Shown here one piece after another: positions 57,448 to 63,133 of a DNA stretch of 64,000 bases. The position numbers and the translations under genes are program-made. The notes beneath the pieces are model-generated. The model made no database searches and was not told the origin of the DNA. It was given only the letters and a program-made list of their open reading frames with translations. The stretch covers positions 1 to 64,000 of the forward strand of contig WHTH01000003.1 in the NCBI GenBank assembly GCA_009377865.1, written 5' to 3'. How positions within the stretch are numbered: position 1 is the first letter of the stretch; each line of letters starts with the position of its first letter. The DNA is from Pseudonocardiaceae bacterium. Lineage in GTDB: Bacteria > Actinomycetota > Actinomycetes > Mycobacteriales > Pseudonocardiaceae.

Positions 57448-58020
57448 CTTCCCCACGCTCGCACGCCCGTCCCGCCCGTCCCGCCCACGTGCCGACTGGC
57501 CGACCGGCACGCACGTTCCGGCAGCCCCTCGTCCATGAACTCGACACCGCGCGGGTTCGCCGTCCCCACGACCCCCAACCACGTCGAGTTCATGGACACC
57601 GGGGTCATGTCGGGTGGGGCTCTTCCCGGCCACGCGATGTGGACAAAACGGCCAACCAGTTGGGGACAAGCTGTGGATAGTTGCGGAATCGGTGTGGACG
57701 GACGACTCATCGCGCAGCTCCGTCCACCACCATGAGAACCCGCCCACCGATCCCCGCACCGAGGGTCCACACCGCGCCGCACCGGTGGACCTGCGCCGAC
57801 GGACACAATCCACACCGCCCACAGGTCCTACTACTGTTACTGCTCTTCTCTCTTGAGAAGTAACTCTCCTAAAGAAGCCGGTGGACCAAACCTCGCGAAG
57901 ACGCCTGGATCCTGCCCAGGCCTGTGATGGCGCCACCCCGCCGTAAGTCCTACGGTGACGCAATCGCGCGGGCTCTGGGACTGCCGCGCGCAGCCACCGC
58001 TCCCGAGAAAGGACAGCCCA
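57448..58020. other. oriC: Putative replication origin oriC
   Basis: The 573-base gap after dnaA has a perfect DnaA box TGTGGACAA (57638-57646) and clustered variants TGGGGACAA (57661-57669), TGTGGATAG (57672-57680), TGTGGACGG (57693-57701), with opposed GGGTCCACA (57763-57771) and CAATCCACA (57806-57814). These are followed by the only AT-rich tract in the region (~57825-57880), a likely unwinding element. The place between dnaA and the next gene is where oriC lies in Streptomyces and mycobacteria. Fewer perfect boxes are seen than in Streptomyces. Confidence 0.75.
57531..57597. repeat. Perfect 15-bp inverted repeat in the oriC region
   Basis: GTCCATGAACTCGAC (57531-57545) is repeated in exact inverted form at 57583-57597, with a 37-base spacer. 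It sits between the dnaA stop and the first DnaA box. It could be a dnaA terminator, a protein-binding dyad or a copy of a dispersed palindromic repeat. The minus strand across it can be read as a short peptide, but without coding features. Confidence 0.75.
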
Positions 58021-58986
58021 GTGCAGAGCGACCCAGTGCAAAGCAGCGCAGTGCAACTGGGACTCGTCGGCCTCGGCCGGATGGGGGCCAACATGCGCGA
58101 CCGGCTGCGCGCCGCCGGGCATCGAGTGATCGGCTTCGCCCGCACCGCGGAGATGGCCGACGTGCACTCGCTCGACGAACTTGTCAGGGCGCTCGAGCCG
58201 CCGCGGGCGGTGTGGGTCATGGTACCTGCCGGGGAGCCGACCAAGCAGACCGTTCGCGACCTCGCCGAGTTGCTCGAGCCCGGCGATGTCGTCGTCGATG
58301 GCGGCAACTCGCAGTACACCGACGACCAGGAGCACGCCGAGCTGCTCGCCGGTAACGGCATCGGTTACGTCGACTGCGGCGTCTCCGGCGGAGTGTGGGG
58401 CCGCGACAACGGGTATGGGCTGATGGCGGGTGGCGCCACCGCCGATATCGAGCGGCTGCTGCCGATCTTCGACGCGCTGCGCCCGGGCGGGCCACGCGAG
58501 GAGGGATTCGCCCACGCCGGCGGGGTCGGGGCGGGCCACTACGCGAAGATGGTGCACAACGGCGTCGAGTACGGCCTGATGCAGGCTTACGGCGAGGGGT
58601 TCGAGCTGCTCGACAGCGCCGAGGTCGTCACCGACGTCGCGGCGGTCATCAAGGCCTGGCAGCGGGGCACTGTGGTGCGCTCCTGGCTGCTCGACCTGCT
58701 CGTCCGGGCGATGGACGCCGACCCGGGGCTCGACGAGCTGCGCGGCTACGCCGAGGACTCCGGGGAGGGCCGATGGGCGGTGCAGGAAGCGGTCGAGCAC
58801 GCCGTCCCGGCGCCGGTGATCTCCGCGGCGCTCTTCGCGCGGTTCAGCTCTCGGCAGCAGAACTCCCCGGCGATGCGCGCGGTTGCCGCGCTGCGCCAGC
58901 AGTTCGGCGGGCACGACGTGCAGCAGCCGGCACCGACAGTGCCAGCCGAGCCTGCAGCGCCGTTGTCGGGGTCCGGCACGGAGTAG
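58021..58986 (+). CDS. gnd: 6-phosphogluconate dehydrogenase, short NAD-type
   Basis: 321 residues from the GTG at 58021, preceded by AAAGGA. Rossmann motif '[20 protein letters not shown]', '[20 protein letters not shown]', substrate motif '[20 protein letters not shown]' and '[20 protein letters not shown]', catalytic Lys in '[20 protein letters not shown]'. The short form lacks the long C-terminal helix pair of the ~470-residue enzyme. It decarboxylates 6-phosphogluconate in the pentose phosphate route. gnd before recF is typical of Streptomyces and Pseudonocardiaceae. Its TAG overlaps the recF GTG. Confidence 0.93.
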
Positions 58987-60128
58987 TGCACGTTCGGACG
59001 CTCGCCCTCGACAACTTCCGCTGCTGGCAGCATGTCGAGCTCACCCTCGAACCCGGCGTGACCGTGCTCGTCGGTGCCAACGGGCAGGGTAAGACCAACC
59101 TCCTCGAGGCACTCGGATATCTCGCCACACTGGGATCGCACCGGGTGGCCACCGACGCGCCGCTGGTCCGGCAGGGAGCCGAGCGAGCGATCGTGCGCGG
59201 GACCGTGGTGCACGACGCCCGGGAGCTGACCGTCGAACTCGAGATCGCCCCCGGCCGGGCCAATCGTGCCCGGATCAACCGCTCCCCGGTACCGCGCCCC
59301 CGCGAGGCGCTCGGCATCCTGCGATGCGTGCTGTTCGCGCCGGAGGACCTCGCGCTCGTTCGGGGTGATCCCGGGGAGCGTCGGCATTTCCTCGACGAGC
59401 TGCTGGTGACGCGCGCGCCGCGGCTGGCGGGCGTCCGCGCCGACTACGACAAGGTACTCCGGCAGCGTTCGGCACTGCTCAAAACGGCAGGCGCGGCGCG
59501 CCGGGCCGGCCGGGGCAGCGTGGATCTGAGCACGCTCGATGTGTGGGACGGCCACCTCGCCCGGCACGGGGCGCAGCTGCTCGCCGCCCGGCTCGACCTA
59601 CTCGCCGCGCTCGCTCCGTACGTCGTCGCGGGCTACGCCGGGGTGGCACCCGAATCGCGCCCGATCGGGCTGCGGTACCGCTCCGGTCTGGGTGATGGGC
59701 AGCCCGCCGAAGGCGAGCCCGCCGACGCCGGGGAACTGGAGGCCGCGTTGCTGTCCGAACTCGGTCGGCTGCGTGACCAGGAGGTCGAGCGAGGGGTGTG
59801 CCTGGTCGGGCCGCACCGCGACGACGTGGAGCTCTCGCTGGGCGGGACACCCGCCAAGGGTTACGCCAGCCAGGGCGAGTTGTGGTCGTTCGCGCTGGCG
59901 CTGCGGCTGGGCAGCTACGAGTTGTTGTGCGCCGATGGCGCCGAGCCGGTGCTGCTGCTCGACGACGTCTTCGCAGAGCTGGACCGCAGGCGGCGGGGCC
60001 GGCTCGCGGAGGTTGCGCTGGGCGCGGAGCAGGTTGTGGTCACGGCGGCAGTTGCCGAGGATGTACCCGAGGAGCTCGTCGGACGACGGTTCGACATCGG
60101 GAACGGGGAGGTGAGCCTTGTCTGGTGA
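58986..60128 (+). CDS. recF: DNA replication and repair protein RecF
   Basis: 380 residues from the GTG at 58986. Walker A '[20 protein letters not shown]', '[20 protein letters not shown]' as the conserved helix, signature '[20 protein letters not shown]' and Walker B '[20 protein letters not shown]'. SMC-like ATPase that helps load RecA at single-stranded gaps. Overlaps the DUF721 gene by 11 bases. Confidence 0.97.
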
Positions 60129-60849
60129 TGACCCTGCTGCACAGCGTGACGACGCTGACCCGTTCAGCGCCGCTTTGGCTGGGGACAACCCTGTGGACGG
60201 TGTGGACAACTCGATCAGTGGCGGCGACGATATCGCAGGTCACACCGGGATGGAGCAGCCCCAGCCACCTCGCATGGAGCAACCGACGATCGAGGGTGGT
60301 GGCCGGCCCGGCGCGCCCGATGACCGCACCGGCGAGCAGCCGCGTGGCGCAGATCTGGCGCGGTCCGCGCTGCAGGCGGCGCAGTCGGCCGCTCGTGACG
60401 CCGGCAGGGCGGCACCAGGGTCACGGCAGCGGCGGGTGACCCGCCGTGGCGCGCCGCGGCGGCGCCGCGGCTGGTCGGGCTCACGCGGCGACGACCGTGA
60501 CCCGCAGCCGCTGGGACGGCTGGCATCCCGGCTGGTCGCCGACCGTGGCTGGACCACCAGAGTCTCCGGTGGACAGGTGTTCGGCCGCTGGGAGCGGCTG
60601 GTCGGCGAGGAAATCGCCGAGCACGCCCGGCCGGTCGCACTGCGCGAGGGTGAACTGACCGTGCAGGCCAGTTCCACGGCCTGGGCCACGCAGCTGCGGT
60701 TGCTGCAACGCCAGCTGCTGGGCCGGATCACCGCCGGGGTCGGGCGTGGTGTCGTGACCCGACTGCGGGTGCTGGGCCCGGCCGGGCCGAGCTGGCAGTA
60801 CGGCCCCCGTCACGTGCGGGGTCGCGGCCCCCGCGACACCTACGGCTGA
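60118..60849 (+). CDS. dciA: DUF721 protein, DciA-type helicase loader/operator
   Basis: 243 residues with a TTG start inside the recF end. A long Asp/Gly/Gln-rich disordered N-terminus and a basic patch ('[20 protein letters not shown]') precede the KH-like DUF721 domain ('[20 protein letters not shown]', '[20 protein letters not shown]', '[20 protein letters not shown]'). DciA replaces DnaC-type loaders and interacts with DnaB; mycobacterial Rv0004 is the example. Its first ~30 codons contain three DnaA-box-like sequences. Confidence 0.9.
60180..60209. promoter_or_regulatory. Tandem DnaA-box-like cluster in the 5' coding part of dciA
   Basis: TGGGGACAA (60180-60188), TGTGGACGG (60192-60200) and the perfect box TGTGGACAA (60201-60209) lie within 30 bases, the last two exactly abutting. 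They fall inside the disordered N-terminal coding region, which relaxes protein constraint. DnaA binding could regulate downstream gyrB or extend the origin; this is inference. Confidence 0.55.

Positions 60850-63133
<2,284 letters not shown>

Follow-up and report, generated by a model that had tools for sequence, protein, structure and literature searches.

In Actinomycetes the chromosomal origin is described as part of a gene cluster, dnaA-oriC-dnaN-gnd-recF-dciA-gyrB, and in M. smegmatis oriC is reported with dnaN, the 6-phosphogluconate dehydrogenase gene, recF and dciA adjoining it (PMC5720831). Such cluster orders are not universal: several Helicobacter species are said to depart from the ruvC-dnaA-dnaN-gyrB order (PMC5043019). 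A dnaN gene can also occupy a second site in actinomycetes, as in the accounts of the self-resistance clamps GriR and MypR, where MypR appears as an additional dnaN within a peptide-antibiotic cluster, close to transposase genes, and GriR likewise lies near transposases (PMC10817943). Within the titles and abstract openings of the open-access literature searched, no announcement of the present relocation was found. We report here an uncultured lineage of Pseudonocardiaceae in which dnaN is missing from the origin and the clamp, encoded elsewhere, is highly divergent, a property absent from the first-pass annotation of this DNA; it is probably not the native gene.

The window, by which we mean the whole stretch of 64,000 nucleotides analyzed (C39:1-64000), belongs to a Pseudonocardiaceae genome of 4.0 Mb in 121 contigs with 4.45% estimated contamination (G000). 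It shares with the Actinomycetes origin cluster, as outlined for M. smegmatis, the gene order, the orientation and an origin-like gap after dnaA, with gnd, recF, a dciA-like gene and gyrB following dnaA on the same strand, and it differs from that cluster in being without dnaN (PMC5720831; Table 1). The first-pass annotation had noted this absence, both between dnaA and gnd and in the rest of the window, against a normal order of dnaA-dnaN-gnd-recF, and each of these points is borne out. No clamp reading frame is present between dnaA and gnd on either strand among ORFs of at least 60 aa, a tblastn search of the gap with 36 DnaN proteins returned no match (E up to 1), a Pfam PF00712 search of the genome matches only contig C113, and the normal order holds in relatives. 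The same 36 proteins, searched against the corresponding gaps of seven lineage relatives, gave a best E of only 0.038. DnaA-box-like nonamers with at most one mismatch number three in the 573-base gap versus a median of five in 31 family gaps (median 1041 bases), a comparison that is not decisive, and across the whole window there are 16 such matches versus 8.05 expected.

Table 1. Features of the origin region in the window, and the single dnaN found in the genome
Feature	Position	Strand	Basis and remarks
dnaA	55921..57447	+	ORF from 55729, start inferred; Bac_DnaA_C match C39:57163-57363
dnaA-gnd gap, origin-like	57448..58020	.	573 bases; dnaN site in relatives; no dnaN or remnant found
DnaA-box-like TTGTCCACA, exact	57638..57646	-	
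DnaA-box-like, 1 mismatch	57661..57669	-	
DnaA-box-like, 1 mismatch	57672..57680	-	
gnd, 6-phosphogluconate dehydrogenase-like	58021..58986	+	ORF from 57955, start inferred; name from the first-pass annotation
recF	58986..60128	+	Name from the first-pass annotation and synteny
dciA-like gene	60118..60849	+	Name from the first-pass annotation and synteny
gyrB	61166..63133	+	Name from the first-pass annotation and synteny
Single dnaN of the genome	G000:C113:100428-101585		Pfam PF00712 search

The PF00712 profile, run against the whole genome, identified a sole locus (C113:100452-101105, matched in two stretches of one ORF), which corresponds to a 399-codon open frame at 100.4 kb of a 126.8 kb contig, well away from its ends. 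This genome-wide search upholds one half of the earlier proposal that dnaN had moved, or had been deleted with a second copy elsewhere: the only copy found is indeed elsewhere, while the clamp that it encodes is probably not the native one. The relocated gene is native-like in GC and GC3, and the C113 slice and the window have a G+C content of 0.709 and 0.697, respectively. Profiles PF00712, PF02767 and PF02768 all score far above cut-off in both proteins scanned, and these three clamp domains are shared with solved mycobacterial and related actinobacterial DnaN, whose best eight chains (8dj6, 4tr7, 3p16 and 3rb9 among them) are full-length homologs with E values of 1e-103 to 1e-111. What the lineage has in common with GriR and MypR is an actinomycete dnaN placed at a second site; unlike MypR, which is described as a second copy, the lineage dnaN is the only one found, and the neighboring genes that were read suggest no peptide-antibiotic cluster (PMC10817943). 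An NRPS on C113 is likewise not suggested by the 54 of 165 ORFs of at least 250 aa that passed a base-composition filter and were judged by eye on their length and first residues.

To place this arrangement among relatives, the positions of dnaN and dnaA were compared in 59 genomes (60 including G000). The distance between dnaN and dnaA is at most about 4 kb in 32/32 other Pseudonocardiaceae genomes, each from its own genus, and in 23/23 other genomes of the order, and dnaN is therefore found beside dnaA in all 55 assessable relatives outside the lineage. These counts need both genes to be found and cover 32 of 33 family genomes (G012 has no dnaA match) and 23 of 24 genomes of the order (G059 has neither gene); in G028 the two genes adjoin across the record start. 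The exceptions are G001, from the same genus, and G003, from the same family, in which dnaN and dnaA are on different contigs. An alignment of three lineage proteins was used to scan named genomes for this type of dnaN and gave ten MAG loci with 78-92% identity, the other 54 loci reaching at most 51%; nine of the MAGs are titled Pseudonocardiaceae or Pseudonocardiales bacterium and one Actinobacteria bacterium. The ten MAGs, G001 and G003 among them, constitute with G000 a lineage set of 11 genomes, in every one of which exactly one dnaN was found, of a single divergent type (cut by a contig end in G470).

In all eight lineage genomes whose dnaA and gnd share a contig, no dnaN lies between the two; in G001 each of these two genes sits at a contig end, and G464 and G470 yielded only remote relatives of gnd. 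The size of the gap ranges from 0.57 to 7.0 kb in these eight genomes (measured between alignment or ORF ends in the seven other than G000), which suggests a variable insertion site. In G003 the gap (L037:10005-17025) holds 7 kb of unrelated genes, by eye of AbrB, PIN, MFS and XRE type. The loss of dnaN from the origin is a lineage-wide relocation and not an artifact. The first-pass annotation had allowed that the assembly lost the gene, and an assembly in 121 contigs with its estimated contamination might lend itself to the view that dnaN was dropped from positions 57448-58020 or that the C113 copy is a contaminant. Assembly loss is wrong because comparison of the interval in close relatives shows the same dnaN-less gap in eight of eight genomes. 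The same single dnaN with the same neighbors recurs in separately assembled MAGs, and C113 and the window are alike in G+C; the lineage MAGs lead us to reject both assembly loss and contamination, the probability of which we consider very low. The Helicobacter exceptions, as reported, concern another phylum, whereas the departure seen here is lineage-wide, within a family that keeps the order, and comes with a divergent clamp (PMC5043019).

The new neighborhood, in which genes are named from a reading of their proteins, is common to the lineage. In 10/11 genomes dnaN is preceded by a histidine kinase gene, and in 10/11 it is followed by an amidohydrolase gene, the miss being a contig end in both cases; NYN and then trmB follow in 9/11 (not found in L182, cut in L188), with a CDP-alcohol phosphatidyltransferase-like gene in between in 7/11. 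The response-regulator gene beside the relocated dnaN (L033:8913-9520) looks decayed in G000, where its start is missing and an internal gap of ~110 bases appears relative to relatives; it has a full frame in G003.

We searched 12 relatives with 19.9 kb around the new dnaN and used ten single-contig genomes (G015 having two contigs). The matches listed for nine of these ten relatives include a kinase or regulator gene ~34-58 kb from dnaA, while for G004, the tenth, the AI-2E-type gene alone is listed, at 34 kb, giving about 34-60 kb for the kinase, regulator and AI-2E-type genes taken together. On the other flank, pckG and trmB are listed in 10/10 relatives and the amidohydrolase gene in 9/10, at 69-163 kb from dnaA. 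All listed flank matches are on the upstream side of dnaA; four of the distances cross the record start on the assumption of a circle, and an additional, distant pckG copy is present in both G015 and G023. With flanks at 34-163 kb from dnaA in relatives, both direct flanks are therefore origin-region genes. A search of 20 relatives with the NYN protein gave no match and, lacking a positive control, carries no weight. Mapping by these nearer flanks conflicts with that by fadB, which is located ~8 kb from the new dnaN and roughly 0.9-3.3 Mb from dnaA in eight relatives; the neighborhood has therefore been rearranged in the lineage. Such rearrangement speaks for the earlier inference that relocation deprived clamp supply of origin-proximal dosage, but the direct flanks on both sides map close to dnaA in the ten relatives among the matches listed, and we judge this inference very unlikely to be right. 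By this mapping in relatives, the new dnaN site of the lineage is probably still origin-proximal, and dosage would therefore be little changed.

The divergent clamp is of more interest than the inference on dosage, which is weak. Against 33 family clamps, those of G000, G001 and G003 reach an identity of 47.0-55.4%, compared with 64.4-93.6% among the family clamps themselves; against eight clamps of other families they reach 46.0-55.8%. For gnd, recF and gyrB the lineage is just 4 to 7 points under the family mean: lineage-to-family means are 70.6% versus 77.1% within the family for gnd and 69.5% versus 73.8% for recF (two lineage genomes in both cases), and 75.7% versus 81.3% for gyrB (G000 alone). 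The corresponding values for dnaA are 76.3 and 73.9, in a set that holds badly predicted rows (minimum 20%). Inside the trio of G000, G001 and G003, dnaN (80.5-91.8%) and dnaA (80.4-91.9%) have diverged to a similar degree.

DnaN binds many partners through one conserved pocket. Compared with solved actinobacterial DnaN, the C-terminal MPVRL has become MSMRL in the lineage, and the lineage (10 rows, without the partial G470) departs from 113 canonical clamps at 13 of the 91 columns that are at least 95% conserved among them, versus 0 to 6 for five single control rows. Pro380, the equivalent of E. coli Pro363, is Ser in 10/10 lineage rows (partial G470 left out) and Pro in 113/113 canonical, 20/20 other-class and 17/18 paralog rows; the E. 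coli Pro242 site is Val in 10/10 lineage rows, as it is in 12/79 order and class rows. Most pocket residues agree with other Actinomycetes. Pro363 is assigned to subsite II of the partner pocket in the account from which our residue list is drawn (PMC11139829). On the polymerase side, the motif QFDLF is present in 15/15 DnaE1-type rows translated on the correct strand, eight from lineage genomes (G000, G001, G003, G462, G463, G466, G468 and G469) and seven from outside, and no co-change with the clamp was seen. The count, for which 27/30 HHH_6 loci were translated, leaves out G022, G005, G014, G037, G467, one G469 and one G013 row, as well as the DnaE2 rows of G014, G004 and G466 and two other DnaE2 rows. 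Since the motif is present in 8/8 readable lineage genomes, the polymerase contact seems, at the level of sequence, to be kept.

A quick tree of concatenated DnaA-RecF-GyrB (eight lineage and 32 family genomes, with an outgroup of eight without families f4 and f8) places the lineage inside the family, with an SH-aLRT of 100 for family plus lineage, a grouping with G005 at 94 and a lineage stem of 0.10. In DnaN trees, built from 161 extracted sequences, the lineage is one clade (100) standing outside the family, on a stem of 0.87 (quick tree, 100 rows), 1.12 (57 rows) or 1.23 (55 rows); its sister varies with sampling, being G037 (82/79) or, without two long rows, family f9 (87/74). Constraining lineage and family to one DnaN clade costs 19.8 log units (AU p 0.081), or 16.7 log units without the two long rows (AU p 0.044), and a constraint joining the lineage to G005 gives a p of 0.0023. 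The tree tests are borderline, and the AU test does not firmly reject lineage and family as a single DnaN clade. DnaN has 28 sites at which the family differs from other Actinomycetes; scored as family state, outside state or neither, these family-diagnostic sites come out as 6/15/7 in the lineage, with 7/17/10 and 1/9/4 under other cut-offs and 11/17/7 with a smaller outside set, for which G005 gives 26/6/4. On the 28 sites G005, which adjoins the lineage in the concatenated tree, scores 21/4/3; the scores of nine control rows from outside the family extend from 2/24/2 to 20/5/3, and the two f8 rows among them still keep 18 and 20 family states. The control genes of the lineage score 28/2/0 (dnaA), 11/0/1 (gnd) and 18/3/4 (gyrB), while recF offers just five diagnostic sites (1/2/2). 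Searching for a donor in 296 class genomes (seven without a match) gave, among the matches listed, a best identity outside the lineage of 54% (G305, a family member) and of 53% beyond the family. The best match was 39% in other classes, 47% in phages and 49% in plasmids, and a scan of viral contigs for close relatives gave none, such that no phage, plasmid or viral donor comes nearer than 49%.

We lean toward an explanation in which the lineage gained a divergent clamp that did not originate in the family and lost the dnaN linked to the origin. The common ancestor of this uncultured Pseudonocardiaceae lineage would have lost dnaN from the dnaA-oriC-dnaN-gnd-recF-dciA-gyrB cluster, oriC remaining between dnaA and gnd, and its replacement would be the divergent dnaN now flanked by a two-component gene pair on one side and an amidohydrolase-NYN-trmB-pckG block on the other. 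The family's own origin-linked dnaN would not be the ancestor of the new gene, which may instead derive from a different clamp within the order, either by acquisition or as an old duplicate; because dnaN is essential, gain presumably preceded loss. As the only copy found, and with all three clamp domains, the new gene would encode the working replicative clamp, presumably serving all replication and repair. The change would lie in the clamp itself, its partner-binding pocket included, rather than in dosage. Because no donor was found and long-branch effects are possible, we hold with only moderate confidence that the clamp was replaced from outside the family and within the same order.

The native dnaN might instead have been translocated and then have changed in a single adaptive or relaxed burst on the lineage stem, with a normal rate afterward, a course we consider rather unlikely. 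It would require a roughly tenfold excess on a single stem followed by ordinary divergence, 15 of the 28 diagnostic sites would have reverted to the outside residue versus six kept, and the grouping with G005 in the concatenated tree is rejected for DnaN (p 0.0023); long-branch attraction could, however, account for part of these points. The AU p of 0.081 leaves a clade of lineage and family DnaN standing, both direct flanks are origin-region genes in relatives, base composition is native-like, and no donor appeared among the class matches listed or in other classes, phages, plasmids and viral contigs, all of which agree with a native gene. The clamp could also be a second, divergent paralog that took over once the origin-linked copy was lost, since many family genomes have a second dnaN (20 fetched). 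Identity, tree and neighborhood lead us to reject this as very improbable: lineage clamps are 26-37% identical to 18 of the 20 paralogs (two short frames dropped) versus 47-55% to canonical clamps, the paralogs cluster on their own (SH-aLRT 100, 8 rows) with a branch length of 3.52, and no protein of the new neighborhood was matched at 1e-5 in 20 paralog loci of 19.9 kb. The second, very divergent dnaN is located ~259-383 kb from dnaA in G013, G022, G023, G028, G035, G017, G024, G008 and G031, and 575 kb from it in G019; other family genomes carry one on another contig.

If a foreign clamp did displace the native gene, an essential replisome hub has been swapped in nature. Lineage-wide loss combined with an apparently non-native clamp makes this lineage a natural test of the exchangeability of such a hub, and of whether origin linkage of dnaN matters, and the pocket change is relevant to clamp-directed antibiotics. 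More speculatively, and with little credence on our part, the lineage chromosome may depend on a clamp of foreign origin whose altered partner pocket, with Ser and Val where E. coli has Pro363 and Pro242, was favored by selection; such a clamp could, for instance, descend from one that gave resistance to griselimycin-like peptides of neighbors and have then displaced the native origin-linked gene. A resistance origin is possible by analogy with GriR and MypR as these are described (PMC10817943).

Clamp genes in unusual settings were also seen outside the lineage. A 7 kb faecal record labeled 'Bacteriophage sp.' (MT837359.1) carries a chromosome-like actinobacterial dnaN with 47% identity and is perhaps a mislabeled bacterial fragment. 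In family f31, which by an identical row includes Nocardiopsis, four genomes (G177, G166, G227 and G236) have two dnaN genes each, ~50-53% identical to the query. An annotated dnaN, 38-41% identical to the lineage dnaN, is present on at least 13 Streptomyces plasmids of about 54-388 kb, and such plasmid-borne clamps are a possible route of clamp exchange.
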